Shown here piece by piece: positions 1 through 27,836 of a stretch of 38,518 nucleotides of DNA (its first letter is position 1; every line of letters starts with the position of its first letter). The notes beneath the pieces were generated by a model that saw only the letters and a list, made by a program, of their open reading frames with translations, did not search any database and had not been told where the DNA came from. Both the position numbers and the translations under genes were made by a program. Source of the DNA: Bacteroidia bacterium (GTDB taxonomy: Bacteria > Bacteroidota > Bacteroidia > UKL13-3); the NCBI GenBank assembly GCA_023151275.1, contig JAKLJI010000028.1, forward strand, positions 1 to 38,518, read 5' to 3'.

Positions 1-735
1 AATCAACCCCTATTTATTCTATAAACCTGTGACCCCTTCAGGGTCGTGGAATTGCATTCAATCAATTATCAAACTGGTCTATAAACCTGCGACCCATTCT
101 GGGTCGTGGGCATATACCCAATCAATAATTGTCCTATAAACCTGTGACCCCTTCTGGGTCGAAGAGATTAAATCAACCCCTATTTATTCTATAAACGTGT
201 GACCCATTCTGGGTCGTGGAATTGCATTCAATCAATTATCAAACTGGCCTATAAACCTGTGACCCATTCTGGGTCGAAGAGAATAAATCAACCCCTATTT
301 ATTCTATAAAACTGTGACCCCTTCAGGGTCGTGGAATTGCATTCAATCAATTATCAAACTGGTCTATAAACCTGCGACCCATTCTGGGTCGTGGGCATAT
401 ACCCAATCAATAATTGTCCTATAAACCTGTGACCCCTTCTGGGTCGAAGAGATTAAATCAACCCCTATTTATTCTATAAACGTGTGACCCATTCTGGGTC
501 GTGGAATTGCATTCAATCAATTATCAAACTGGCCTATAAACCTGTGACCCATTCTGGGTCGAAGAGATTAAATCAACCCCTATTTATTCTATAAACCTGT
601 GACCCCTTCAGGGTCGTGGAATTGCATTCAATCAATTATCAAACTGGCCTATAAACCTGTGACCCATTCTGGGTCGAGGAGATTAAATCAACCACTATTT
701 ATCCTGTAAAGCTGAGATCCGCTTCAGATCATTTA
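1..735. repeat. Palindromic tandem array with 285-bp higher-order period
   Basis: Twelve clear copies of a 15-bp inverted repeat (GACCC, 5-nt centre, GGGTC) start at 31, 91, 146, 201, 261, 316, 376, 431, 486, 546, 601 and 661. A decayed thirteenth lies at 716-730. Spacing alternates 55 and 60 bp. Each palindrome is preceded by a CTATAAACCTGTG-like leader. Loop and linker types recur every five units, giving an exact 285-bp period: the AATCAACCCC linker is at 1, 286 and 571, and again at 171 and 456. Stop codons occur throughout, so the array is not coding. It starts inside a unit at base 1 and probably continues to the left. Function is unknown; it could be a structured RNA, a protein-binding array or simple repeat expansion. 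Confidence 0.9.
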
Positions 736-842: not shown

Positions 843-3818
843 TCAAAACAAACGAGTCTGCTCCAAGGCGTGGAAGCGGCCAATTAACTCCCGGATAAAC
901 TCGTAATGCTTTACATACGGATTGGGAATCAAGAGCAGTTGAATGCCTTTTGCGTTCAAGTACTCCGATTTGATCCGATCTGAGTTCATACGCTTTTTGT
1001 CTTTGTAATGTTCAATGCCATTCAACTCAAACACCACTTTGGGCTGCTTGCCTTCATACAATACCCCATCAAATTCTTTTTTATTCAAGGAAGGATTATT
1101 CAGCTCTTCCGGGAATAAGGAAACCAGCTTCACATTGCGTTCAAAGCGAACCTGTTTGATGGTGCAATAATGTTGCATGGTCTTGTAAAACTCATTCTCA
1201 AAGTAGGAGTCGTTTGAAAAGCCAATGGTGAATTTTGTCGCCGCACTTTGAGCTACTTTTACCTCTCCGTTCTTAGCCACGTATTCAATCAACGCATACA
1301 AATCATCGTCCCTGTTCGAGAGCGTTGCAATGGCTTTGGTATCGCAAACCACAATCAAATTTTCCTTGGCGCGGGTTACTCCAACATTAATCAATTCACT
1401 GTTGTTTTTAATCCAGTTGTACGTGCGTTTGCTGCTATTGGTAGCCAAAGCAGTAGAAATTACAATCGTTTTATTTTCCTGACCCTGAACCTTGTGAATG
1501 GTGCCGCATTGAACCGAATCATCAACCCGACCAAATGCTTTGGCTTCTTTCAGATAATGGTTGAGCACTTCTTCCTGATTCCGAAATGGCGTCAGAATAA
1601 ACACATCGGTTAACTTGCTTTCCTGAATATACCGCACAATCTCTATGGCTTCCTCGAGTTGTGAATTCTTGGCTTTCTGGTTGTGATTAGAAACCTTAAG
1701 CAATTTCAAATTTCCCAGTTTCTGAATGGCTTCAATATTCAGCTTATTCTCGTAAAAGCGTTGGTTGCTGTAATTGATTATTTTTCGTCCACAGCGGTAA
1801 TGGTAACTCAATAAAATATTTCGTGAGATATTATCAATCCGCTTAAAAACAGAAAGAATCGAATTCTCCCGGTAATTGTACTCCTCCTGTATATCCAGCT
1901 TTTTCATGAGCTCTTCATTCCGAAACTCATCCAACAAAATAATCGGCTTGAGCTGGTTGGTATCTCCAATCAAAACCATGTTCCTGCACTTGGAAATGGG
2001 AACCAAACTGGTTGGAATATCACATTGTCCCGCTTCATCTATTACCAACAAATCAAACTTGTAAGAATGCCCCAGGCGATGCGCGGAAATATTCGTAGTT
2101 AAAATCACAGGAAAAACCTTAAGCAACAATTCTAAATTGGCATCCACACCCAACCAGGAATTGAATGCTTTGATTTGCTCGTCTTCAAACTCAATTTTCA
2201 GGATATCCATCAAGGGCTGAAACTCTTTACCACGAAGGCGCTTAATGCATTTCAGGGATTCAAAATAAAAGAACTGCAACAACGAATGATTGCCCTCAAT
2301 CACTTCAAATATGCCTTTAAGACTTTCCTCCGAAACAGGTGGAAGCGCTTGCAATTCTTCCAACAATTTGCTGCGTTCTTTTTCCAGCAAATGATAGCTT
2401 CCTTTTGCAATCAATCCTTCTACAAATTCAAGATTCTGCTCCAGTTCCAAACGCGACTCAATGCTCTCCAAACGTTCATCCAGCAAGCGATTCCTAGCTT
2501 TCGATTTCTCTTTCAATTGCGAAAGCAAGTTCTCTCGTGGAATATCTTTCGACTCAAATGCAGCATACTTACGGATGGTTTCTAATGCCTCCTGAGTATA
2601 AGCCTTATTGCCTAACCGAAGGATTGGAAACAGAATGGGCTTGTTCTTGTAAGTACCTAACTTCAACTTGGCTAAAATTCCATCTATCGGCACATTGTTA
2701 TTCGAGCTAATCAACAAGGTTTTATTGCTCGTAAAACAGTTCACCACTATGTTCAAAATGGTTTGTGTTTTTCCGGTTCCTGGCGGCCCTTGAACATAAG
2801 TAACAGGATACTTCAAGGCATTGTAAATGGTACGAAGCTGATCGCGGTTTACCTGATCATCGTACAATACAATATTGGGTTTGGTACGGTTGCGGGTATC
2901 CAGCGACGACATGTTCTGAAACAAAGCCTTCAAGGGTATCTGCAAGGTTCCGGCATTCAATTCCTGTTCAATCTGGTTGTAAATGCGTGAAAGATCAAAT
3001 TGCCTGTAGCCCAGCACCACAAGTTCCGGACGCGTATTGGCAAGCTCTCCCCTGCGAAACTGTGCCTGCAAATGTTGTATCACATCTACCTTGTTTGCGA
3101 GGTACCAGTTCTCAAAATCAACCTGAGTCATTTCACTGTAATACGACAAGGCATGCTTGACCCCTTGGATATAAAAACTTGGATTGAAGCGAACCTTATT
3201 GCCCACAACCAGGGTTCTGCTCACCGGGTCGAAACTCATCTTCCGGTAAGCAACCACAAACTTCCCTCTGGATTCCAGGTCAATGGAAAACTCACAAAGT
3301 GCAAGCTCATAATCCTGGTAGCGCGGATAATCATTTTGGTAAATTTCGGCAATGAGTTTCTTCTGCTGCGCACTATCCAATACATAGGGGTTTGTAGCTT
3401 GTAAGGTATGCAAATCAATTCCCGGGATTAGGTACTGTTGATATAGAAAAGGGTCGCAATTTGCCCTGTAGCATTCGAGGTAATAAGTAAGAATGCGGTT
3501 GTGATTTACATGCAAACCATAAGGCTCCAGCGATGGGTCGCTCTCAAGCTTCTTTAACAAATAAGGACCCGGCTCATAATGCGAAAACCGTAAGACTTCA
3601 GCCGATTGAATGCGCGAAAAGTAAATCTTCTTATTCAGCAAAGGCTCTTCCTTGGTAACATTAAACATATCAACCTTCAACCTATCGTTGGGAAGAATAT
3701 CGAGGATACGAATCCAAAAGGGCGTGATAATATTCTCCTGGTTCTTGTAAGTTATAGCCAGGTACCTGCCCTCGCGAACAGCCTTTCCAACCAATGCCCC
3801 AATGGAGTAACTAGCCAT
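843..3818 (-). CDS. Superfamily 1 (Upf1/Dna2-like) helicase with C-terminal DUF2726-like nuclease domain
   Basis: A predicted ATP-dependent DNA or RNA helicase of 991 residues. Seen in the sequence: Q-motif region near 322-328, Walker A GPPGTGKT at 344-351, Walker B VIDEAGQ at 592-598, motif III GDTNQLKP at 618-625, a YHYRCG motif near 672, motif V HKVQGQE near 775-781 and motif VI VGVTRAKEN at 812-820. Residues 425-495 are charged and probably coiled coil. The C-terminus (about 868-990) resembles DUF2726, a PD-(D/E)XK-like fold, with D917, E931 and N933 at candidate active positions and a basic R/K-rich segment following. The N-terminal 300 residues were not recognised. It stands alone, facing the palindromic array, with no close co-directional neighbour. 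A role in DNA repair or defence is inference; the helicase call itself is secure. Confidence 0.9.
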   Translation of the reverse strand: MASYSIGALVGKAVREGRYLAITYKNQENIITPFWIRILDILPNDRLKVDMFNVTKEEPLLNKKIYFSRIQSAEVLRFSHYEPGPYLLKKLESDPSLEPYGLHVNHNRILTYYLECYRANCDPFLYQQYLIPGIDLHTLQATNPYVLDSAQQKKLIAEIYQNDYPRYQDYELALCEFSIDLESRGKFVVAYRKMSFDPVSRTLVVGNKVRFNPSFYIQGVKHALSYYSEMTQVDFENWYLANKVDVIQHLQAQFRRGELANTRPELVVLGYRQFDLSRIYNQIEQELNAGTLQIPLKALFQNMSSLDTRNRTKPNIVLYDDQVNRDQLRTIYNALKYPVTYVQGPPGTGKTQTILNIVVNCFTSNKTLLISSNNNVPIDGILAKLKLGTYKNKPILFPILRLGNKAYTQEALETIRKYAAFESKDIPRENLLSQLKEKSKARNRLLDERLESIESRLELEQNLEFVEGLIAKGSYHLLEKERSKLLEELQALPPVSEESLKGIFEVIEGNHSLLQFFYFESLKCIKRLRGKEFQPLMDILKIEFEDEQIKAFNSWLGVDANLELLLKVFPVILTTNISAHRLGHSYKFDLLVIDEAGQCDIPTSLVPISKCRNMVLIGDTNQLKPIILLDEFRNEELMKKLDIQEEYNYRENSILSVFKRIDNISRNILLSYHYRCGRKIINYSNQRFYENKLNIEAIQKLGNLKLLKVSNHNQKAKNSQLEEAIEIVRYIQESKLTDVFILTPFRNQEEVLNHYLKEAKAFGRVDDSVQCGTIHKVQGQENKTIVISTALATNSSKRTYNWIKNNSELINVGVTRAKENLIVVCDTKAIATLSNRDDDLYALIEYVAKNGEVKVAQSAATKFTIGFSNDSYFENEFYKTMQHYCTIKQVRFERNVKLVSLFPEELNNPSLNKKEFDGVLYEGKQPKVVFELNGIEHYKDKKRMNSDRIKSEYLNAKGIQLLLIPNPYVKHYEFIRELIGRFHALEQTRLF

Positions 3819-4558: not shown

Positions 4559-7500
4559 ATGAAGCATTTCTACCCTTTTCTACTTTCTTTATTTTCTCCT
4601 TTTCTAAAAAAAGGCAAGCTGCATTTTGCTTTGCTTTTGCTTTTCCTTTCGACATCGCATAGTCTGTTTTCACAAGGGTTTAAAATCCATAGCTTCCTTG
4701 GAAACCGCTGCAACAACCAAAGCTTCCAACTTGTATTTACCTACGATACCCTAAACGCTCCAACTGCCCCAATTATCGCTGAGCTTTCGGATGCAGCAGG
4801 AATCTTTAACCCAATCCCACCTAGTATTGGTTCAATAAGCTCTTTAAGCGGAGGCTCCGATACCATCACCTGTTCTTTCTCAGGCATTCCTGCCGGTTCC
4901 AATTACCGCATCCGAATCAAAAGTAACAATAGCCCCCCATGGATGGACACCTCGAGTTCCTTCAGCATTTCCATTCCAACGGTGAGTTTTACGTTTACCA
5001 ACAACAATGCTTGTGCAGGTGCTGTAGTTCTTTTCTCGAATACATCAACTGGAGTAGGTAGTCTGAGCTGCAATTGGGATTTCGGAACCAATCCAGGTTC
5101 GCCGGGAACATCAACCCTTTGCTTCCCTGGTGTAAGCTTTTCACCACCACCCGGAGGAGGTTCGGTAAATTACACGGTTGCACTTACCGTCACCGATGGA
5201 CAAGGTTGCAAAGCAAGTACCACAAACATTGTGACTGTAAAGCAGAATCCAAATCCTTTATTCGATACCGCAAACGTTACATCAACAGCAACATTTGATC
5301 ATTCACAAAACCTATTTATTGGTGACTGCTCTGTTACGATGCAGTCTCCAAACTTTAACTTCGTAATTGGAAACACATCGACTACGTCCTCAAGTATTAC
5401 GAGTTATTCCATAAACTGGGGAGATGGAACAGCCAATACAATCCTACCCAATTTTGTTACCACAAGCCATCTTTACACCCAACTTGGCCTTTTTAACATC
5501 AATCTAACGGCTACAGCAGTCAATGGCTGTCAGTTCACAAAAACCTATCAATTTTTTAATGGAAACTCTCCTTCAGGCAATTTAACAACTATTCCAAATA
5601 TTAATGATTGTGTACCTTATACGATTACATGGCAAGTCGACACAAGTACAACAAATTCAAATCCACCAGGAACAACTTATACTTTCGAGGTAAATGACGG
5701 TTCTCCCATCCAAAACTTTACCCAATCTACCTTGCCAACTAGCATTTCTCACACATTCACCGTTTCATCCTGTAGTATTCCACCCTCAAATTCTTTTACA
5801 ATTAAGTTTACTCCAAAAAATCCATGCCAACCGTATCCGACTACTTTTACAGCGAGGCCTTCCCAAAAACCGGTTGCATCATTTACAATAAATCCATCAA
5901 ACACTATTTGTACAAATACAAATGTATCTATCAATAATACCTCAATTGGAAATTACTTTATAGGCTCAACCTGCTTTTCAAATTTTGAAAAATACTGGTT
6001 CATCACTCCAGCAACAGGTTGGACTTTACTTTCAGGACAACTCGCTCCTTCACCCACAGCTATTAATGGTTCCAATAATCTCAGTTTGAGTTTCCAACAA
6101 CCTGGTAATTATCAAATAAAACTTAGAATTGTCAGATCTAATTCAGGAGGAAATCTAAGCAGATGCTTTGCAGATTCTGCAATACAAACCATCTGCGTTC
6201 AACCCATACCCATTCCCTCTTTTACCTTAAACGTTTCTCCTTCTTCCAATTGTAAGCCTACCCTGGTTTCGGCTGCCAATACTTCCAATACCTTGAGCAG
6301 TTGCGCAACTCCGGTGTATACCTGGACAATTCGCGATAGCAGCACAACAGGCTCTACTCCTGTGCTTCCGGGTACTCGTTTTATTTTTGCCAACGGTACC
6401 GATTCAAACAGCCTCAACCCCAGCTTCCAATTTCTTCAAAAGGGTCGATACATCATTCGCTTGCGCATCAGCAATACCTGTCCGGGAAATTTCTTCAAAG
6501 ACACACTCATCATCATCCGCGATATTCCCGTGGTTGGACTTCGACCGGATATCATTTATTGCGGTCCGCAAAGCCTTTCCTTCTCTTCCTCAAACCCAGC
6601 TCATGTTGCTACGTATGATTCCAGCTTTAGTCCTATCAATTCATACGCGTGGAGCATTAGTCCTGCAAGTGGATACAGCTTTGTAAGCGGAAATGCATCC
6701 AGTCCTTTTCCAACCATTCAGTTTACAAACACTACCAATCTTCCTATCACGTATCGCTTAATCCTAACTGCCACCAATGCCTGCGGAGTTTCAAACCCCG
6801 ATACGCAAAACATTACCATCAACCCAAAACCTATTGTAACTGCAAACTCCCTCAACCCTGCATTCTGTTCGGGAGGTACGGCTCAAATCACCCTAAGCCA
6901 TAACCTGGCCGGTGGCGTTTTATATGGCTGGCGAGCTTACCCAAGCTCTCCTAATATTTCGGGATTCAGCAACAGCAGCAGTCCGGTTAGTGGACCTATC
7001 AACCAAACCCTTTTCAATTCAGGCTCAACTACCGAAACAGTGACTTACAAGATTGCAGCCTCACAATCGAGCACCAATTGCTTTGGCGATTCAAGCTCGG
7101 TGGTAGTTACGGTTTACCCCATACCCAAGGTGCAAGCCATTGCACAAGCTATTTGCTCGGGTGCAACATTAAGCCTGCCTTTGAATTCAACTGTTTCAGG
7201 AGCCTTATTCACCTGGACAGCCAATTCAAAAGCCTCATTGGTGTCAGGCTTTAGCAACAATCCAACTCCGGCTCCTGGACCCATTCTGCACACGCTTATC
7301 AACTCGTCCAATTCGACTGTCGATACCGTTCGATACACCATTCGTGCGAGTGCCAATGGATGCAATTCTCCGGATACCTTAATCCAAATTCGGGTTTCAC
7401 CCACACCGGTAGTCAGCGCTTCCAATCAAACCCTTTGCAGCGGAACCCAATTGGGTCTTAATGCAAGTTCCTCTGTTGCGGGAAGTAGTTTTGCTTATAC

Positions 7501-10500
7501 AGCACAACTCATTTCTGGCACAGCCACCGGGTTTGGCGGAGGAACAAGTATCCCCATCAATCAAACCCTTACGAATACAGGCACTACACCGGCACTCATT
7601 CGCTATAGCTTAAGCACCACGAGTCCGGCACCTGCGTTCTGCCCCAGTGCACCAGTTTTGATTGATGTTACGGTTCAACCCAAACCCGCTTTATCTGTAA
7701 GTAGTACAAGCACCATTTGCAGTGGCTCATCTACCTCCATAAACTTGAGCAGCAATGTAACAAACACGCTTTACCGGTATAACGCAACCTTAGTTTCAGG
7801 CAGCTCAACCTTTGGCTTTTATTCCAAAACCACCGACACCCTTGGCCCCATTTCACAAACCCTTTTTAACAATGGAAGTACAAATGCTGTTGTGCGTTAT
7901 TTTATCACGCCACGCATTGGGAATTGTTCAGGCGATAGTGTTCAACATGAGGTAACGATTATTCCAGGACCCATACCCGGAACCATTGGCAGTATGGGAC
8001 CTTTTTGCAGTGGCAACAATGCATTCAACTTACAACTTTCAGGCAGCAGTGGAACCATTGTGCGCTGGGAAAAAAGTGTTGCTCCATTTACAAGTTTCGA
8101 CCCAATTGCAAACACCAATGCCATATTGCCTCAAAGCGGTCTAACTCAAACCACCAAATACCGTGTGGTAATCAATACCGGAGCAGGTGGGGCATGTGGT
8201 TCAGTTACCACACCGGAGGTAACCGTTCAAATTGATTCAATCTCCTTGGGAGGAACCTTGAGTGCTTGGGATACCGTATGCACCGGAACCAATAGCGGCA
8301 ATCTTACGCTATCCGGCAGCAGGGGCCAAATTCAAAGTTGGCAAAGTGCAAGCAATCCACTGGGAAGCTGGACAAACATTAGTGGAACAGCCAATCAAAG
8401 CAACTATACCTTTTCAAATCTAAGTAACACTACCTGGTACAAGGTACTCGTTAAAAATGGGGTATGTCCGAGTGCAATTTCAGACAGTGTGCGGATATTG
8501 GTTGACCAACAGCCCTCCAATGCTTTGGCATTTGATACCAGCTTTTGCTTGCTTACAGCCGGCATACCTATAACAGGATTCGTTCGCGCTCAGGCCATAT
8601 CCATTGGCAATGGAAACTGGCAATTTTTATCGGGACCAAGCAGTTCAAGTGTAAGCTCACCCCAATTGCTTAGCACGCCAATTTCCAATTTACTTCAAGG
8701 CGATTATTACTTCACCTGGAGGGTATCGAATGGAAAATGTCCATCAAAAGTTGATACTGCCAAGGTGAGTATTTATCCGCCACTGCAAAGCAGTATTGGC
8801 AGCGAACAAACCATTTGCCAGGGCCAAACAGCAGCCACACTTACGGGTTTGGCAACAAGCGGAGGAACCGGGACCTATACCTATCAATGGGAGCAAAGCA
8901 CCAACAACATTATCTATACGAACATAAACGGCGCTACCTTATCCAATTATAGTCCGGGAGCATTAAGCAGCAGCACCTGGTTCAGAAGAATTACCCGCTC
9001 AGGAACCTGTGTTCATATTTCAAGCAGTGTAAAGATTACAGTGCTACCTTCTATTGGGGGAAATAGCATATCAGCAGATCAAGCCTATTGCATAGGAAAC
9101 ACATCCAACCCAATTACAGGCTCCTCCCCAACAGGAGGCGATGGCACATTTAAGTACCAATGGCAACGCTTTAGCGGAGGTACTTGGGTAAACGCAGGCG
9201 GTGCAGATACGCTGCAAAACTATGCACCCGGAGCCTTGAGTCAAACCACCCAATTTAGAAGATTGGTAACAAGTAATGTTTGCTCAGGCGCACAGCAAAG
9301 CATAAGCAATTCCGTTACGCATACTGTGTATCCGCTACCTGTGGTGCAAGCCGGGGCCGATATTATCAAATGCAATAACCAGCCTAAATTCAAACTGCTT
9401 GGCAATCCTTTGTCGGGAACTTGGTCTGGACCTCAACCCATAGTGGCTGACAGCATTGACCCTACACAATATGCTTTGGGAACCTATTCGCTAATCTATA
9501 CCTACACGAATAGCAATGGCTGCACAAATCGCGACACATTAAACTTTACGGTAATAGCTCCACCGGTAGTGGATGCCGGAAGCAATTTCAGCATTTGCCA
9601 AAACAGTCCTGCGGTGCAACTCAGTGGCTTCAATCCGGCAGGCGGCACATGGTCGGGACCAGGGGTAAGCAGCGGTGGATTATTTAACCCAAGTACGGCC
9701 GGCGCGGGCACCAAGCAACTGATTTATTCCTTTACGGCTGGAAGCGGTTGCAATGGAACTGATACATTGCTTATTATGGTGCAACCCAAACCCGACCCGG
9801 GTTTTATTTTACCTGTGCGTGCTTGTGCCTTGGATACAATCCTGCTTTCAGCTACAAGCAATCCTTCAGCAAATCTGGCCAGTTTAGTTTGGAGCCTAAG
9901 CAATAATGGTGGAATGAGTAATGCCATTTTGGGCAGTACAACAGCTGCAAACACTCAAGCCATATTCCCCGAAAACCAAGGCAATACAGACATTACCTAT
10001 ACTGTTAAACTGATTCAGGTTACCAATCAGGGTTGCTCGGATAGTATCAGTAAAACGATTGTCCATTTAAGAAGGCCATTGGCCCAATTCAATACCGGTG
10101 CGGCTATCAATTGCGGACCTGCCTCCTACTCTATCCTGAACACGACATCGAATGTTGCGAGTACGTATTTGTGGTCGGTGAATCCAACAGGCAACGTGAG
10201 CATTGTTACGCCAACAGCGGCAAATCCACAAGTGAATCTGCCGGTGAACACCAGCAATGCACAAATCAGTTATCAATTGCAACTGATTGCCACACGGAAT
10301 ACCGGCGACCTAGGCTGTAGAGATACCGCAATTGCCAATTTGATTGTGTATCCTAAACCACAAGCAGCGTTTACCTTATCGCCCAATGCAGCAGGATGTT
10401 CACCGCTTCCGGTAACATTTACCAATGCATCAAACCCCAAAAATGGAGAAAGTATCAACGAGATGAGCTTCAGTTGGACCTTTGGTGGATTAGCTGCTGA

Positions 10501-13500
10501 TACCAACCGAGATCAAAGCAGAACCTTCTTCAACCGAGGTGGCATAATTGATAGCTTATACACCGTTCGATTAATTGCCACAAGCAAATGGGGTTGCAAG
10601 GATACACTCAGCAATACCGTGACGGTGTATCCATTCCCTAAAGCTGATTTCTCGGCTAGTGTCATTTCCAATTGTGCACCCTTTGCCATTGGCAGTTCGG
10701 TGATTAGTTTGAACCAATACCCTATTGCCAACGATACCTATACCTGGCATATTTTAGACAAAGCACATAACATCCTGAGCACATCCAGCGGAACAAGTAT
10801 TCCAAGCCATACGCTCAATCAACCCAACGACACGGTGTACTACCGACTCATTACCTCGAATGTACACGGATGTAAACCGGATACCTTAACTCGCATGTTC
10901 AGAACCATTGAAAATCCGAAAGCTTTATTTAGCCTGAGTGATTCGGTAGGTTGCCATCCTTTGAACATAAATCTGACAAGTCAAAGTACCGTCGGAGTTA
11001 ATCATTCCTGGAACTTTGGCAATGGAGCAACAAGCACCACAATCAATCCAAGCCAAAACTTTATCAATACCAGTTTTACCAAAGATACTACCTACTTTGT
11101 ACGCTTGGTGGTAACCGCTGGGACAGGTTGTCGAGATACCTTGATCAAGCCGCTCACTGTTTATCCGAAGCCATTGGCAGCATTTTCGATAAGTCCGCAA
11201 GCATGTGCAAAATCTGTTGTGAGCGTTGTTAATAGCAGCCAACACAAAGGAAGTTTCGCCACATGGAATTGGAGCAGAATGAGTCCAACACAATCTTTGC
11301 TTCAGGCATCCGACAGCACCTTACGCGAACCCCAATTTGCATTGCCTGATAACCAAGGAACAAGTGATAGCAGCTATACCCTCAGGTTACGCGTAACCAG
11401 CTTGGATGGATGTTCAGCAGATACATTCCGAAGTTTTACCGGATTACGAAGACCCTTGGCAGGTTTCAATTTACCCAATCCTACTTGCGGACCCGTGCTG
11501 GTGAATTCAAGCAATACCACAAGCAATGTTGGGGCAAGCTTCCAATGGACATCACAACCTTCAGGAGTAAGCATTAGCAATCCCAACGCAACTTCACCCA
11601 GCTTCAGCTTCCCATTAAACGGCAGCGCCGATTCACTTAACTACCGGATAACTTTATTGGCCATAAGCTCAACAGGTAATTGCCGTGATTCCATCGGCAA
11701 AACAGTTACCGTATATCCGAAACCCATTGCCAGCTTCAGCAGTAATGCCCTTGATAGTTGCGGACCTAGAAGGATGGAATTCATCAATAACTCAGACCCA
11801 AGAAATGGAGAAGACTCAAACAGCATGACCTGGAACTGGAGCTACCTGGGCAAGCAAATTTTTAGCAAACATGCAGCTGACACATTCCGAAACAGTGGCG
11901 TGGTGGATAGCATTTATGCGGTACGTTTGATTGTTACCAGTCAGCATGGTTGTAAGGATAGCACAAGCAAAGACATTCGTGTACGCCCCGATGCCAAAGC
12001 ACAATTCAGCAGAAGCATCAGCATCAGTTGTGCGCCCTTCCAAATCACGAGCAGCATTATCAGCACAAGCATTTTCCCGGAGGCCAATAGCAGTTACGAA
12101 TGGTATGCCAATCAAAGTTACTTGGGTTCAGGTAGCACATTTCCGGGATTTAATTTAGCCAATCAAGCGGATAGCGTTTTGATTAAACTAAAAGTGTTGA
12201 GCAAAAATGGCTGTAAGCACGATAGCATGTCGCTTTGGTTTTATACCATTGAAAATCCAAAGCCGAATTTCATCGCCATTGACAGCGTGAGCTGCAGCGG
12301 CAAAACGGTTCAGTTTACCAACTTATCTACTCCCACAAGTGGTTTAGCCTATACCTGGCAATTTGGAAGCAGCGCGCAAAGCAGTAATCAAAGCAACCCC
12401 AGCTTTAGCTTTACCAATTCTGGAAACCTTGATACAACGGTATTCATCAAACTGATAACCCTTGCAGGAGGAACAGGTTGTAAAGACTCGCTTATCAAAA
12501 GCATTGTAATTAAGCCATTGCCTAATCCCGATTTCCAGTTAAGCGATTCGGTGAATTGTTATCCATCTCCTGTATTGGCCACTATCAGTTCAGGCAATCA
12601 ACCACCCATTAACCCATCCACTTACCGCTGGGTAGCCGGACCAACAGGAATTAGTCTGCTCAACGATACTGCATCTGCAAGCAATAGCTTTCAATTTACC
12701 GACAATCAATCGGGCAATTCAAATGTGTATTGGGTGCGTTTGAAAGTAGCCTCCAATTTTGGATGTATTGACAGCATCAGCAAAGCCTTACGCATACCTA
12801 GCCGACCCATTGCCTCATTTGTGTTTAATCCGGGAAATGGCTGTGGACCATTCAGCAGCATAGCCACTAGCAATTCAAGTTTTGGCACTAGCTATACCTG
12901 GAAAGATTTAAGTCAGCAAGGAACTGTGAACAACCCAAGCGCATCAAGTACAGGCATTAGCTACCCCGTGCACCGTGGCAATCTGGATTCAATTTATGCC
13001 CTGCGATTGATTGTGAGAAGCAATGAAGGTTGCTTAGATTCAATTAGCAAAACCGTTACGGTACATCCTAAACCCATAGCCAGATTTGTGGTGGATACGA
13101 GCAGCGGTTGTGCCCCATTGCACATCAACTTTAGCAGCAATTCCATTGTGAAAAAGCCTGCCAGTTTGAATTGGAACTTTGGAGATGGAAGCGCGATTGT
13201 TATCAGCAGCAATGACAGTTCAAGCCATACCTATTTGGGCTCCAAATGGCAGGACACCAGCTATACTTCGCGACTAATTATCCAATCGGCAGACGGATGC
13301 AAAGACACCGTTTATAAATCCATTTTTGTTCAAAGTGGTGCCTATGCCGATATTGTTCTTCCCGATACCCAATTGTGTTCATCTAAACTAAATCCGGCAT
13401 CGCTGCTCATTCAAAACAAATCCTATGGTAGCGTTGATACCTTTTACTGGGATTTTGGCGATGGACAACAACTAATTACCACATCAGACAGTGCCATTCG

Positions 13501-15913
13501 CCATCCATACAATCAAGAAGGGTATTACAAAATAACCTTGCGGGCAAAGAACGATTGCCGTGAAAGCTTTGATTCGGCTTATGTGCTTGTTCAAACCCCA
13601 GCCCGGGTTCAAATTACCAAGAGCGATTCGGTAGGATGTAGTCCGATGAAAGTAAGTTTTACCAACCTAAGCACCGATACATTCAGGGCACAATTCTATT
13701 GGAACATGGGCAATGGAAACACCTATTCAAGTTTTCAAATACCGGAGCAAACCTACCTGCAAAGTGCTGTCACAGATACCTTCTATTACATACGCCATAC
13801 CATAAGCAATGTGTGCGGAAGCTTTAGTATTTTGGATACCGTTCGTGTATTGCCTTTACCAACTTCCTATTTCCTTACCAATACAGATTCGGGATGTTCA
13901 CCCTTGGCCGTAACGGTACTCAACCTCAGCTATGGCGTTCCACAAACCTACAATTGGGACTTTGGAAACGGCTATATCAGCACACGCAGAAACCCCAATC
14001 CGGATTCTTTGGTGTACCGCACCCTTGATACACCAACAGTGTATTTGATTAAGTTGGTAGTAAGCAATATTTGCGGAAGCGATAGCAGTTTCAAACGCAT
14101 CAAAGTGATGCCTAATACCGTGAACTCGTTCTTTACCGCAGATGTTCAAAACGGTTGTGATGCACTTACGGTTCGGTTCACCGACTACTCAAGCGGCGGA
14201 CAAAACCTGAGTTGGAATTTTGGGGATGGAACAGGCAGCACGGCAAAAAATCCAAGCCATACCTTTACGCAGCCGGGCATTTACCGCGTATCGCAATTTG
14301 TAAACAACAACTGTAGTTTTGATACCAGTTCGGTACTCATTCAGGTGTATCCAAGTCCGGCCTTTAGCATCGCCAAACAAAGCAAAGCAGCTTGCATGGA
14401 AGAACCTGTGCAATTCAGCGCTACCTTAACAGACCCGGGCACATTGATTTGGTATTTTGGGGATGGAGATTCCTCCTTCCAACAAAATCCTACACATCGC
14501 TACACAACATCCGGAATCAAAATCATCAAAGCCGTGATGGTATCGGCATTGAATTCCTGTACGAAAACGCTTTGGGATACGCTACTCATCAATCCATTGC
14601 CCGGTGCGACAATAATTGCAGATACCAGCAGAGCCTGTCAAAATGAAGGTTTCCATTTCATGGGCACAACTCAAACTCCGGCATTCCTGCAATGGGATTT
14701 TGGGGATGGTAGTTTTGGAAACGGAAATTCAGTAAGCCATTACTTCAATCAAGCCGGCAGCTTCAGCATACGCTTGGTAGCCACAAGTGCTGCAGGCTGT
14801 TCGGATACGGCACAAAAAATAATCACGGTATATCCTGCTCCGGATGCATCGTTTGTTATGAGTCCGAGAGACACCTGCAATGGACCAGCTTGGGTTAACT
14901 TTACCAATACCAGTCCGGGAGCGAATACATACCTCTGGCAATTTCACGATGGAAGCAGTTCAAGTTCCATCAACGAACGCAAATTTTATTCAGGACTAGG
15001 CAGCTATGCCATCCGTTTGATTGCTACGAACGGCTTCCTGTGCAAGGACTCGGCCATTGACAGTTTCGCCATACTAGACAAACCGGTAGCTGCATTTGAT
15101 TTCACACCGGAAGATTTGTGTGAAGGAGAAAGCGTTCAGTTCAACAATCAAAGTTTAAGAGGCAAGCGCTTCACCTGGTATTTTGGCGATGGAGACAGCT
15201 CGCAGCAGGAAAATCCAAGTCATCGCTACTTGGATTCGGGCGAATACCGGGTAAGGTTGATAGCCTATGCAGGCAGTGTTTGTTTGGACAGTTTAACTGC
15301 ATCAAAAACGGTGAAGGTGCATCCGAAACCGAGGCCTTCAATGCTCATTCAAGTTGACAGTACAGAAAAGCCAGTACGCACCGTAAGCTTTGCTTATACA
15401 GGCACACATGGCAAACGAGTAAGTTGGAATTTTGGTGATGGCTCTGAATCGCAAGGCAATCAGGTAATGCACAAGTACACGTATGGGTACAACGACTCTT
15501 GCTTCAATGTAAGCGCATCGATTCTGTCCGATTATGGCTGTGACACATTGCTCGTACAACGCATTTGCTTACCTGCTTACAAGTATGGCTTATTTGTTCC
15601 GAATGCCTTCACACCTGATCATGGCATAGCTGAAGTAAGGGAATTCAAACCGGTAGGAAAAGAAATCAAAACCTATCATTTGCGCATCTTTACCAAATGG
15701 GGAGAATTGGTGTTTGAGTCAACCGAACTAGCAGATGGAAGTCCGGCAAAAGGATGGGACGGCAGGCACAAAGACAGCGGAGTATCCCTGGATCAGGGCT
15801 CATATATCTGGACCATAGAAGCGGTGTTTACCAATGAACAAGCCTGGGATGGAATGCTATTTCCGGGAGCCAGCAAAAAAGTTAAAGTAGGAAATGTAAC
15901 GCTAATCCGATGA
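4559..15913 (+). CDS. Giant PKD-repeat surface protein with T9SS type B sorting domain
   Basis: A 3784-residue secreted protein, probably an adhesin or surface filament. The N-terminus has a long signal peptide ending near LFSQ (about residue 39). The body is Ser/Thr/Asn-rich and built from tandem Ig-like domains. Residues of about 740-1240 carry PKD-like units with a recurring CSG start; elsewhere WxFGDG-type PKD motifs occur about 15 times, for example WNFGDGTGS and two near-identical GDGDSS units close to the C-terminus. Residues 3675-3784 match the gliding-motility-associated C-terminal domain (TIGR04131): VPNAFTPD, IFTKWGELVFES, GWDGR and a GSYIW strand. This sends proteins through the type IX system. 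The stop overlaps the start of the PorP/SprF gene by 4 bp, the usual partner arrangement for type B cargo. A block of about 450 residues is repeated (see findings). Confidence 0.93.
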   Translation: MKHFYPFLLSLFSPFLKKGKLHFALLLLFLSTSHSLFSQGFKIHSFLGNRCNNQSFQLVFTYDTLNAPTAPIIAELSDAAGIFNPIPPSIGSISSLSGGSDTITCSFSGIPAGSNYRIRIKSNNSPPWMDTSSSFSISIPTVSFTFTNNNACAGAVVLFSNTSTGVGSLSCNWDFGTNPGSPGTSTLCFPGVSFSPPPGGGSVNYTVALTVTDGQGCKASTTNIVTVKQNPNPLFDTANVTSTATFDHSQNLFIGDCSVTMQSPNFNFVIGNTSTTSSSITSYSINWGDGTANTILPNFVTTSHLYTQLGLFNINLTATAVNGCQFTKTYQFFNGNSPSGNLTTIPNINDCVPYTITWQVDTSTTNSNPPGTTYTFEVNDGSPIQNFTQSTLPTSISHTFTVSSCSIPPSNSFTIKFTPKNPCQPYPTTFTARPSQKPVASFTINPSNTICTNTNVSINNTSIGNYFIGSTCFSNFEKYWFITPATGWTLLSGQLAPSPTAINGSNNLSLSFQQPGNYQIKLRIVRSNSGGNLSRCFADSAIQTICVQPIPIPSFTLNVSPSSNCKPTLVSAANTSNTLSSCATPVYTWTIRDSSTTGSTPVLPGTRFIFANGTDSNSLNPSFQFLQKGRYIIRLRISNTCPGNFFKDTLIIIRDIPVVGLRPDIIYCGPQSLSFSSSNPAHVATYDSSFSPINSYAWSISPASGYSFVSGNASSPFPTIQFTNTTNLPITYRLILTATNACGVSNPDTQNITINPKPIVTANSLNPAFCSGGTAQITLSHNLAGGVLYGWRAYPSSPNISGFSNSSSPVSGPINQTLFNSGSTTETVTYKIAASQSSTNCFGDSSSVVVTVYPIPKVQAIAQAICSGATLSLPLNSTVSGALFTWTANSKASLVSGFSNNPTPAPGPILHTLINSSNSTVDTVRYTIRASANGCNSPDTLIQIRVSPTPVVSASNQTLCSGTQLGLNASSSVAGSSFAYTAQLISGTATGFGGGTSIPINQTLTNTGTTPALIRYSLSTTSPAPAFCPSAPVLIDVTVQPKPALSVSSTSTICSGSSTSINLSSNVTNTLYRYNATLVSGSSTFGFYSKTTDTLGPISQTLFNNGSTNAVVRYFITPRIGNCSGDSVQHEVTIIPGPIPGTIGSMGPFCSGNNAFNLQLSGSSGTIVRWEKSVAPFTSFDPIANTNAILPQSGLTQTTKYRVVINTGAGGACGSVTTPEVTVQIDSISLGGTLSAWDTVCTGTNSGNLTLSGSRGQIQSWQSASNPLGSWTNISGTANQSNYTFSNLSNTTWYKVLVKNGVCPSAISDSVRILVDQQPSNALAFDTSFCLLTAGIPITGFVRAQAISIGNGNWQFLSGPSSSSVSSPQLLSTPISNLLQGDYYFTWRVSNGKCPSKVDTAKVSIYPPLQSSIGSEQTICQGQTAATLTGLATSGGTGTYTYQWEQSTNNIIYTNINGATLSNYSPGALSSSTWFRRITRSGTCVHISSSVKITVLPSIGGNSISADQAYCIGNTSNPITGSSPTGGDGTFKYQWQRFSGGTWVNAGGADTLQNYAPGALSQTTQFRRLVTSNVCSGAQQSISNSVTHTVYPLPVVQAGADIIKCNNQPKFKLLGNPLSGTWSGPQPIVADSIDPTQYALGTYSLIYTYTNSNGCTNRDTLNFTVIAPPVVDAGSNFSICQNSPAVQLSGFNPAGGTWSGPGVSSGGLFNPSTAGAGTKQLIYSFTAGSGCNGTDTLLIMVQPKPDPGFILPVRACALDTILLSATSNPSANLASLVWSLSNNGGMSNAILGSTTAANTQAIFPENQGNTDITYTVKLIQVTNQGCSDSISKTIVHLRRPLAQFNTGAAINCGPASYSILNTTSNVASTYLWSVNPTGNVSIVTPTAANPQVNLPVNTSNAQISYQLQLIATRNTGDLGCRDTAIANLIVYPKPQAAFTLSPNAAGCSPLPVTFTNASNPKNGESINEMSFSWTFGGLAADTNRDQSRTFFNRGGIIDSLYTVRLIATSKWGCKDTLSNTVTVYPFPKADFSASVISNCAPFAIGSSVISLNQYPIANDTYTWHILDKAHNILSTSSGTSIPSHTLNQPNDTVYYRLITSNVHGCKPDTLTRMFRTIENPKALFSLSDSVGCHPLNINLTSQSTVGVNHSWNFGNGATSTTINPSQNFINTSFTKDTTYFVRLVVTAGTGCRDTLIKPLTVYPKPLAAFSISPQACAKSVVSVVNSSQHKGSFATWNWSRMSPTQSLLQASDSTLREPQFALPDNQGTSDSSYTLRLRVTSLDGCSADTFRSFTGLRRPLAGFNLPNPTCGPVLVNSSNTTSNVGASFQWTSQPSGVSISNPNATSPSFSFPLNGSADSLNYRITLLAISSTGNCRDSIGKTVTVYPKPIASFSSNALDSCGPRRMEFINNSDPRNGEDSNSMTWNWSYLGKQIFSKHAADTFRNSGVVDSIYAVRLIVTSQHGCKDSTSKDIRVRPDAKAQFSRSISISCAPFQITSSIISTSIFPEANSSYEWYANQSYLGSGSTFPGFNLANQADSVLIKLKVLSKNGCKHDSMSLWFYTIENPKPNFIAIDSVSCSGKTVQFTNLSTPTSGLAYTWQFGSSAQSSNQSNPSFSFTNSGNLDTTVFIKLITLAGGTGCKDSLIKSIVIKPLPNPDFQLSDSVNCYPSPVLATISSGNQPPINPSTYRWVAGPTGISLLNDTASASNSFQFTDNQSGNSNVYWVRLKVASNFGCIDSISKALRIPSRPIASFVFNPGNGCGPFSSIATSNSSFGTSYTWKDLSQQGTVNNPSASSTGISYPVHRGNLDSIYALRLIVRSNEGCLDSISKTVTVHPKPIARFVVDTSSGCAPLHINFSSNSIVKKPASLNWNFGDGSAIVISSNDSSSHTYLGSKWQDTSYTSRLIIQSADGCKDTVYKSIFVQSGAYADIVLPDTQLCSSKLNPASLLIQNKSYGSVDTFYWDFGDGQQLITTSDSAIRHPYNQEGYYKITLRAKNDCRESFDSAYVLVQTPARVQITKSDSVGCSPMKVSFTNLSTDTFRAQFYWNMGNGNTYSSFQIPEQTYLQSAVTDTFYYIRHTISNVCGSFSILDTVRVLPLPTSYFLTNTDSGCSPLAVTVLNLSYGVPQTYNWDFGNGYISTRRNPNPDSLVYRTLDTPTVYLIKLVVSNICGSDSSFKRIKVMPNTVNSFFTADVQNGCDALTVRFTDYSSGGQNLSWNFGDGTGSTAKNPSHTFTQPGIYRVSQFVNNNCSFDTSSVLIQVYPSPAFSIAKQSKAACMEEPVQFSATLTDPGTLIWYFGDGDSSFQQNPTHRYTTSGIKIIKAVMVSALNSCTKTLWDTLLINPLPGATIIADTSRACQNEGFHFMGTTQTPAFLQWDFGDGSFGNGNSVSHYFNQAGSFSIRLVATSAAGCSDTAQKIITVYPAPDASFVMSPRDTCNGPAWVNFTNTSPGANTYLWQFHDGSSSSSINERKFYSGLGSYAIRLIATNGFLCKDSAIDSFAILDKPVAAFDFTPEDLCEGESVQFNNQSLRGKRFTWYFGDGDSSQQENPSHRYLDSGEYRVRLIAYAGSVCLDSLTASKTVKVHPKPRPSMLIQVDSTEKPVRTVSFAYTGTHGKRVSWNFGDGSESQGNQVMHKYTYGYNDSCFNVSASILSDYGCDTLLVQRICLPAYKYGLFVPNAFTPDHGIAEVREFKPVGKEIKTYHLRIFTKWGELVFESTELADGSPAKGWDGRHKDSGVSLDQGSYIWTIEAVFTNEQAWDGMLFPGASKKVKVGNVTLIR

Positions 15914-16983
15914 AGAAGTTAATCCATTTATGCCTGCTGTTTTATGCTTTTAGCTTGCAAGCACAAGACCCTATGCTTATTCAGTTTCAGAATCAAAAAC
16001 TGGAACTGAATCCTGCCTATGGAGGACATTCCGGCCCCGGAAGTTTGCATTTAGCCTTTGCAAAACGCACCTCCTTCTTTCCCGTTCGAGGACCTTTTAA
16101 TTATACAAGTGCGGCCGTTGATTTTAGCCCATGTTTTATTAAAAACATTGGCCTGGGAGTCCTTCTTAATAATGAAGTACAAGGAGACGGCCTTTACAGT
16201 AGGACAAGAGCAGGAATAAATCTAGCTTATGGTGTTGCCCTGAATGACAACAACTCCCTATTTTTTGGAATAAGGCCAGGCTTTGTGCACCAAGTCATTG
16301 ATTGGAATGAATTCACGTTTCCGGACCAATTAGACCCTATGCTTGGAATAACACAACCTTCTTTTTACGATCAAAAAGCAAGGGAAACCTCTACTACTCC
16401 AAACATCGATGCTGGGATAAAATACAATAGGTACAAAAATGGCAAACCACAATTCATGTTAGGCATTAGTGGTTTTAATTTAATTGAACCAGAAATTGGA
16501 TTACTGACAGAATTTACACTCAAAAGGCGAATAAGCGTTCACGGCTCAGTTACTTACGGACGTAACACTAAGCTGTATCATAGGACTAGTCTGCGGGCAG
16601 ACTTTCAAAACAACAATTACCTTTTCGCGATTAATCAGGAGCTGCTCATTGAAAACAAACTTACAATGATCTTAGGGGCATCAAGTCCTGTGCATTCACA
16701 ATTTACAAAGGACGTAAGCATGTTCTTTGCATCCGTTGGATTAATGTATCAACCAGTCCAATCTTTATCCTTTTATTTCGCATATGAAAACAATGGAAGA
16801 GGTAAAATGATAAGAGGCCGAACCAGTTCATTTGAAATTGGAATAATCTTGAAATCGTTTAACTCTTTCTGCAAAGGATTTGGACTAAAGGAGGCATTTG
16901 ACTTCAATCCCAACAAGAAAATCATTCAGCCGATGGAGTGTCCAAGTTTTTATCAAGGAGACAAAAAAATCAAAAGCTTCTAA
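15910..16983 (+). CDS. PorP/SprF family type IX secretion outer-membrane protein
   Basis: A 357-residue predicted outer-membrane beta-barrel. The signal peptide ends at LQAQ (about residue 19) and is followed by DPMLIQFQNQ and the family's LNPAYGG motif. Alternating hydrophobic strands and Gly/Asn turns fill the rest, as in PorP/SprF proteins. In the SprB/SprF model such proteins help secrete or anchor one particular type B cargo. The start ATG overlaps the stop of the giant PKD gene (ATGA), so the two are very likely translationally coupled and this is the dedicated partner. The C-terminus (after about residue 315) is Cys-containing and Lys-rich and may be a periplasmic extension. Confidence 0.9.
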   Translation: MKKLIHLCLLFYAFSLQAQDPMLIQFQNQKLELNPAYGGHSGPGSLHLAFAKRTSFFPVRGPFNYTSAAVDFSPCFIKNIGLGVLLNNEVQGDGLYSRTRAGINLAYGVALNDNNSLFFGIRPGFVHQVIDWNEFTFPDQLDPMLGITQPSFYDQKARETSTTPNIDAGIKYNRYKNGKPQFMLGISGFNLIEPEIGLLTEFTLKRRISVHGSVTYGRNTKLYHRTSLRADFQNNNYLFAINQELLIENKLTMILGASSPVHSQFTKDVSMFFASVGLMYQPVQSLSFYFAYENNGRGKMIRGRTSSFEIGIILKSFNSFCKGFGLKEAFDFNPNKKIIQPMECPSFYQGDKKIKSF

Positions 16984-27497: not shown

Positions 27498-27836
27498 TCA
27501 AAGGGGAAAGCTTCCAATTGATTTATTCATTCCAAGCTCTGAGTAGGTAATAGTAAAACCTTTACTACCACTGATTACATCCAATAATGGGCTTCGCTGT
27601 CTAATGGCAACTTAGCCCAGGTTTAAGCCTTAATAGTTGTTTCTGTTCATTGACTCTCAATTTTATCCGCCCCTTTCTTCAGATTTAGCATCAGCACCTG
27701 AACCCTTGCATTGTATTAACGATTCCGCTCGTTCAATACGGTCACTTTATAGAATAATGGTATGAGCAATGCACAAAAATAAGGATGCCGTGTATCGCAA
27801 AACATCCTTTTATACTTTCTTATTTTAGGACATAAT
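27498..27836. other. Gap between Rhs relic and ParE-like gene
   Basis: No complete gene was seen. Next to the Rhs relic, on the minus strand, a frame reads SPLLDVISGSKGFTITYSE and ends at the TGA 27498-27500. This may be the tail of a lost protein fused to the core junction. The part nearest parE holds a terminator-like hairpin (listed separately). The middle (27600-27770) shows nothing recognisable. Confidence 0.5.
27781..27809 (-). terminator. Terminator of the ParDE-like module
   Basis: On the minus strand, AAGGATG (27809-27803) pairs with CATCCTT (27787-27781) around a 15-nt loop and is followed by ATTTTTG. It lies about 30 bp past the ParE stop codon. Confidence 0.6.

Follow-up and report, generated by a model that had tools for sequence, protein, structure and literature searches.

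An ordered array of tagged palindromes in a Bacteroidia genome as a lead to a probable, so far overlooked REP-type system with a transposase of the IS200 clade

Few short mobile repeats of bacteria have been studied as well as REP elements with their domesticated transposases, but bench work has centred on class 2 enzymes of Proteobacteria. The canonical REP carries a GTAG-type tetranucleotide at the 5' foot of its hairpin or at most 2 nt from it (PMC6006769), and the class 2 enzymes, named TnpAREP or RAYT, are described with the motif NP(L/V)(R/K)xG by the catalytic tyrosine (PMC2817692). In Pseudomonas, Bertels and Rainey (2011; PMC3116915) reported alternating GI-GIII arrays, as well as REPIN clusters beside three RAYT genes. 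Palindromic repeats tagged with CGTC have been described from five phyla, Bacteroidetes among them (PMC3733652). Subclass 1.2 of the TnpA_Y1 transposases has been characterised by Quentin et al. (2018; PMC6006769) as proteins of about 150 aa with the motifs DH[IV]H, WQ and Y---Q--HH, present at low copy number and reported mostly in Cyanobacteria and Bacteroidetes. In the same paper these genes are said to be generally without IS200-type terminal structures, and Table 1 enters 'no' under REP for the subclass. In the literature searched, this is the only paper that names both TnpAREP and subclass 1.2; neither 'subclass' nor 'bacteroid' occurs in the text of PMC8266576, and 'bacteroid', 'cytophaga' and 'flavobact' are all absent from that of PMC2817692. 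No published REP-type association was found for subclass 1.2 in this search, which left out most subscription papers, and an earlier notice is possible.

The DNA analysed here, called the window, is the whole of contig C20 (38,518 bp) from a Bacteroidia genome of 3.9 Mb in 76 contigs. It opens inside an array in which 12 palindromic units, each with a tag and 51-60 bp long, follow one another in tandem (positions 1-685, plus strand), delimited by Tandem Repeats Finder, unit cutting and pattern matches; the 12 units are counted from the contig end, which cuts the array. When the array is cut at AATCAA, the units measure 59, 60, 51, 59 and 56 bp, then the same five lengths again, then 59 and 56 bp, and are followed at the array edge by a decayed thirteenth unit of 55 nt (686-740). 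Their order is ABCDE/ABCDE/AE. The first block consists of A (1-59), B (60-119), C (120-170), D (171-229) and E (230-285), the second (286-570) agrees with it at 283 of 285 bases, and the third cycle (571-685) is 170 bp short and holds A (571-629) and E (630-685) without B-C-D. Tandem Repeats Finder describes positions 1-676 as 2.4 copies of a 285-bp period with 98% matches (score 1324). A sequence-only reading of this DNA had already proposed the nested five-unit order with its 285-bp period, and a last cycle that is shortened before the array decays, and both parts of that description hold.

The two mismatches between the blocks lie at 26/311 and 283/568, one between the A units and one between the E units, while B, C and D are unchanged from block to block. 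Between A and D of one block there are 3 differences in 59 positions, and E combines the 5' linker of B with the 3' linker of C. Since E is a B/C hybrid, D-E (115 bp) reads as A-B-C (170 bp) minus one 55-bp unit. The near-identity of the blocks, the hybrid E and the short last cycle all speak for an exchange of whole blocks, as the earlier reading had supposed. The same reading had set aside a CRISPR array, and rightly, because the linkers between the palindromes recur in order and there are no unique spacers.

Each unit contains CTATAAAC (or a one-base variant), then 4 further bases and a GACCC-loop-GGGTC palindrome. An example is found at 19-46, with a CTATAA tag and a 6-nt spacer before the GACCC/GGGTC palindrome, and 11 further elements start at 79, 134, 189, 249, 304, 364, 419, 474, 534, 589 and 649, all on the plus strand; thus the 12 units of the window share one orientation and none of them forms a doublet. 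A generic tag-plus-hairpin pattern gave 5 matches in the window, every one inside the array, where shuffled sequence gave a mean of 0.09. Folded as DNA, positions 1-300 reach a z of -4.7, and none of 200 shuffles was equally low. No Rfam family reached its cut-off in positions 1-735.

The array is a real ordered arrangement of REP-like elements, and in itself it is a variant of the known REP arrays. As ordered tandem REP arrays have been published for Pseudomonas, its nested order is not new in kind; what is new here is the transposase subclass and the geometry of the tag. Whereas the canonical REP has GTAG at the hairpin foot, the tag here is CTAYNA at about 5-7 nt from the stem, and the window units carry TGT or TGC (plus strand) and TTC or CAC (minus strand) directly before GACCC, with no GTAG. 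The GTAG- and CGTC-tagged repeats of PMC3733652 are likewise tagged short palindromes, as described there, but neither tag abuts the window palindromes on either strand, and CTATAA stands at a distance instead.

The rest of the window holds several other features. The array adjoins the 3' end of a helicase gene (843-3818, minus strand). A Flavo-1 RNA (RF01705; 4127-4224, minus strand; 53.2 bits, gathering score 42) lies between the helicase gene and a 3784-aa ORF, and no CTAYAA-hairpin element was seen in it by eye. The 3784-aa ORF is followed directly by a gene for a PorP/SprF-type protein (4559-16983 together, plus strand), and the pair is presumably a type IX secretion adhesin operon. A match to group II intron D1-D4 (RF02001, 50.8 bits) is located at 27529-27700 on the minus strand, and a 419-aa ORF with a TseH-like domain (PF25218, E 1.7e-27) at the right contig end (37223-38482, minus strand). 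The PorP/SprF-type protein and the Flavo-1 RNA, together with a pattern match in a Bacteroidetes MAG described below, point to Bacteroidota as the phylum of this genome.

A search of the genome for further arrays, which the earlier reading had suggested, placed the array as one cluster of a dispersed family on at least 7 contigs. The GACCC-type element has 43 matches in its own genome at up to 2 mismatches, with none for the reversed-pattern control, and the 41 matches listed lie on contigs C4, C8, C11, C18, C20, C44 and C75. A sister palindrome with the same tag, AATCCC..GGGATT, has 20 matches at up to 3 mismatches, again with none for the reversed pattern. These copies sit in clusters and not in clean doublets. 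Nested periods occur in other arrays (155 and 465 bp on C4; 54 and 107 bp on C75), and in a relative, G057, the array has periods of 51 and 257 bp and five units as in the window, so the higher-order arrangement of the window recurs in the family; the array on C11 has a repeat period of 212 bp. Palindrome composition and order vary between arrays. The sequence-only reading had named identical units, widespread as inert repeats, as an outcome that would undo its proposal: related elements are indeed widespread, but when the genome was searched with the 735-bp query, the five-unit block was not found a second time. Two related units stand at the start of contig C18 (18-105, 92% identity to a section of the array), and this contig may carry the opposite edge of the C20 array.

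Two side observations concern these copies. Between two palindrome clusters on C4 there are two short ORFs (481-940 of the extracted locus L023) that look like a toxin-antitoxin pair by eye. Some copies on C44 and in the relative G034 read CTATAAACCTACGACC, with CTAC against the stem (GTAG on the other strand), which may echo the canonical REP tag, though at a different place.

The search of the genome for Y1_Tnp genes found two, which are 39% identical to each other. The first (C44:49534-49992) lies between two 254-bp blocks of window-family palindromes; these blocks share 89% identity at a distance of 1019 bp, and part of a third block is also present. This gene and the window array are on separate contigs. 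Upstream of the second (C75:96657-97094) there is an array of another palindrome, and the 7 close copies of it found in the genome are all in that array. Upstream of this second gene a 149-aa frame (L031, 3133-3582, minus strand) is made of the palindrome array and repeats KPRRGVIPQLWA; it is likely a spurious protein.

The product of the C44 gene has 153 aa, with DHIH, WQ and the tyrosine region YIENQKEHH. It scores 72.8 with the IS200-type model of NCBIfam (cut-off 55) and 23.6 with REP_Tyr_transpos, under the cut-off of 80, and for both Y1 proteins of the genome NCBIfam gives the IS200 type, while neither passes the REP-associated model. The PDB sequence matches of the C44 protein (8 found) are all named transposase and include ISHp608, as well as entries 2xm3/2xma, which we take to be ISDra2; the fold family was assigned from these matches together with those to Pfam and NCBIfam. 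In a tree of 70 homologous proteins, from which one truncated copy (L053) was dropped, the Y---Q--HH signature is present in all 70, WQ in 69 and [DN]HxH in 69, and the signature is also found in 28 of 29 proteins of a phylum-wide set. By its motifs and its length the C44 transposase is putatively assigned to TnpA_Y1 subclass 1.2, and the two genes per genome agree with the low copy number of that subclass. The earlier reading had suggested that a protein may bind the hairpins, and this Y1 (HuH) protein is a candidate for it.

Compared with the closest described systems, this locus shares with REP/BIME/REPIN elements and their class 2 TnpAREP the short palindromes, a transposase gene among them, doublets and ordered tandem arrays. 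It differs from the RAYT case in the IS200-type score and the failed REP_Tyr_transpos model, and in that its own proteins have Y---Q--HH in place of NP(L/V)(R/K)xG. The IS200/IS605 elements (TnpA subclass 1.1) have a transposase of the same protein family and hairpins beside the gene; here, however, there are no near-identical gene copies, as the identity between the two own genes illustrates, several hairpins are often present on one side, and hairpin families are dispersed without the gene.

The hairpin content around subclass 1.2 genes was surveyed in 100 loci. A hairpin was counted when it had a stem of at least 5, a loop of 3-5 and an inner arm with three or more G/C, and lay no more than 300 bp from the gene. 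The first set comprised the own gene and the homologues nearest to it among 97 relatives, 30 loci in all (the best 30 of the matches listed; L033, L034-L062). Two held-out sets of 20 and 21 loci, mostly of lower identity, consisted of 40 other loci and the second own gene (L031), all chosen by identity with their flanks unseen beforehand, and a phylum-wide set contained 29 loci (L184-L212), the best of the matches listed in a draw of 198 genomes.

In the first set there were 137 hairpins in 17.5 kb, and 28 of 30 loci had at least one. The held-out sets gave 92 and 107 hairpins (7.69 and 8.49/kb; 19/20 and 21/21 loci), and the phylum-wide set 125 in 17.2 kb, with at least one at each of the 29 loci. 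Over all sets, hairpins are present at 97 of 100 loci, with two or more at 94, at densities of 7.3-8.5/kb by set, though many of these loci are related and the counts are for this reason not independent events. Control densities were 1.2-1.35/kb. Around the thiamin pyrophosphokinase gene, placed by tblastn in all 30 control loci of the same relatives, there were 21 hairpins in 17.6 kb (1.19/kb), with at least one in 15 loci and at least two in 5, and flanks at 1000-1300 bp from the transposase genes gave 1.19/kb (10/30 loci) and 1.35/kb (13/29 loci). The three loci without a hairpin are one whose gene is 12 bp from a contig end (L035), the truncated gene of L053, which was kept in these counts, and L129. 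Hairpins near 97 of 100 loci stand against the 'no' under REP in the published table, and we take this as a correction of the description of subclass 1.2 and not as a reason to exclude these genes from it.

The position of the tag is fixed in part of this collection. Counted from the centre of the hairpin, CTA[TC][ATC]A lies at exactly -19 in 18 of the 28 hairpin-bearing loci of the first set, whereas at each of 35 other offsets it occurs in 3 loci at most; among 51 control flanks from 19 loci even the shorter CTA[TC] is absent at -19. The phylum-wide set has the tag at -19 in 15 of 29 loci, the next best offset being -20 with 6. The held-out sets have it in 6 of 20 and 1 of 21 only, which indicates that the tag is confined to some clades and that distant clades have other palindromes. 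Mapped on the protein tree, where it is present for 25 of 70 proteins, the tag needs 13 changes against a mean of about 21 for shuffled labels, and 0-1 of 500 shuffles were as low. The tag geometry is clade-specific, and the clade of the gene paired here with the window array is among those that have it.

The relatives add doublets and a second clade to this description. Among the 97 relatives a TnpA homologue is present in 73 and the window-type element in 6, and its presence or absence relative to the gene is uninformative; three relatives of the same genus have no window-type element by pattern search. The 23 pattern matches in G034 make up 14 sites. Every one of these is a head-to-head doublet with 13-15 nt between its tags, although the left palindrome is decayed at L166 and the right one is of a different kind at L161. 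The aligned arms are near-invariant inward from TTCGACC, and outside it homology is close to background except for isolated columns. By analogy with published elements these doublets have the shape of REPINs, and with the gene-flanking copies on C44 they provide the REP- and REPIN-like features of bounded, dispersed doublets and copies beside the gene. Three Y1 genes of G034 exceed the Pfam cut-off, and each has the tyrosine signature of subclass 1.2; the protein search counted a fourth match beyond those listed.

The palindrome of a second clade, with an CTACAAACAG tag, was found in 11 of the 97 genomes, including the 5 genomes from which the pattern was taken, with none for the control. In 8 of these 11 (G005, G010, G021, G025, G036, G045, G064 and G085) the coordinates place a match no more than 100 bp from a complete or fragmentary TnpA gene; G018, G060 and G074 have matches with no TnpA nearby among the matches listed, and G032, whose gene belongs to the second clade on the tree, has no match. 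On two contigs of G036 (C62 and C79) multi-stop TnpA fragments within 100 bp of tagged palindromes look like decayed gene-palindrome units. A scan of a species-genome collection returned a single stretch (L032, from a Bacteroidetes MAG) with one tagged hairpin adjoining another, the pattern being too strict to describe distribution.

The explanation that we consider likely is that the array is a local expansion of non-autonomous REP-like palindromes served in trans by the subclass 1.2 TnpA_Y1 encoded at C44:49534-49992. In favour of it are the dispersal of the family, its copies on both sides of that gene, the hairpins beside nearly all sampled relatives of the gene and the bounded doublets of G034. 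Against it stand the elements of G057 with no gene found, the small number of genomes with the window-type element (6 of 97, and none of the three from the same genus), the restriction of the tag to some clades, the confinement of the second gene's palindrome copies to one array, the single orientation of the units in the window, the location of gene and array on different contigs, and the genomes that break the pattern in the second clade (G018, G060, G074 and G032). Mobilisation of the palindromes by TnpA is what we infer from these associations. TnpA would bind the hairpin in single-stranded DNA, cut at or near the tag, and copy or move doublets. After arrival, recombination or slippage between hairpins would duplicate blocks: an ABC trimer may have given a copy shortened to DE, and duplication of the resulting ABCDE pentamer would have produced the 285-bp higher-order period.

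It is improbable that the array is an inert tandem repeat formed by slippage and unequal recombination only, with a coincidental or fossil link to the transposase. Recombination alone would yield the block structure, the hybrid E and the short last cycle, and G057 carries 29 elements of the window type, some of them arrayed close to the ends of contigs (L167-L169), with no Y1_Tnp gene found in this 96% complete genome, which is either an orphan repeat population or a case of a gene lost in assembly. An inert repeat nevertheless fails to account for elements on at least 7 contigs, for a tag that keeps its distance from the hairpin beside divergent genes and for the doublets at the 14 sites of G034. 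Still less probable is an array selected for binding or termination, as proposed for the BIMEs of E. coli (gyrase, IHF, transcript ends), with mobility as a secondary property; its place just 3' of the helicase gene and the binding roles of REP and BIME elements described in PMC2817692 would suit such a function, but the make-up and order of the palindromes change from array to array. An assembly artefact, a collapsed or misjoined repeat, is hardly credible even though four contigs (C4, C8, C18 and C20) begin or end in or beside such arrays, given that the blocks are told apart by substitutions and further clusters are internal to C11, C44 and C75; the number of copies in the array is provisional.

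The array, which we read as served from C44, is a lead to a REP-type system that has probably been overlooked and that would rely on a transposase of the IS200 clade. With moderate confidence we propose that subclass 1.2 TnpA_Y1 represents a separate and widespread system of REP type in Bacteroidota, with REPIN-like doublets and its own guide geometry (in several clades, CTAYNA at a distance of 19 nt from the centre of the hairpin). The mobilisation of REPs would then have arisen in the IS200 clade separately from that by class 2 RAYTs. Should the enzymes of subclass 1.2 indeed act on palindromes of their own, a likely role would be given to a gene that is common in Bacteroidota and a cause to many unexplained intergenic hairpins, and two enzyme clades could be compared for how an insertion-sequence transposase becomes a repeat-mobilising one.
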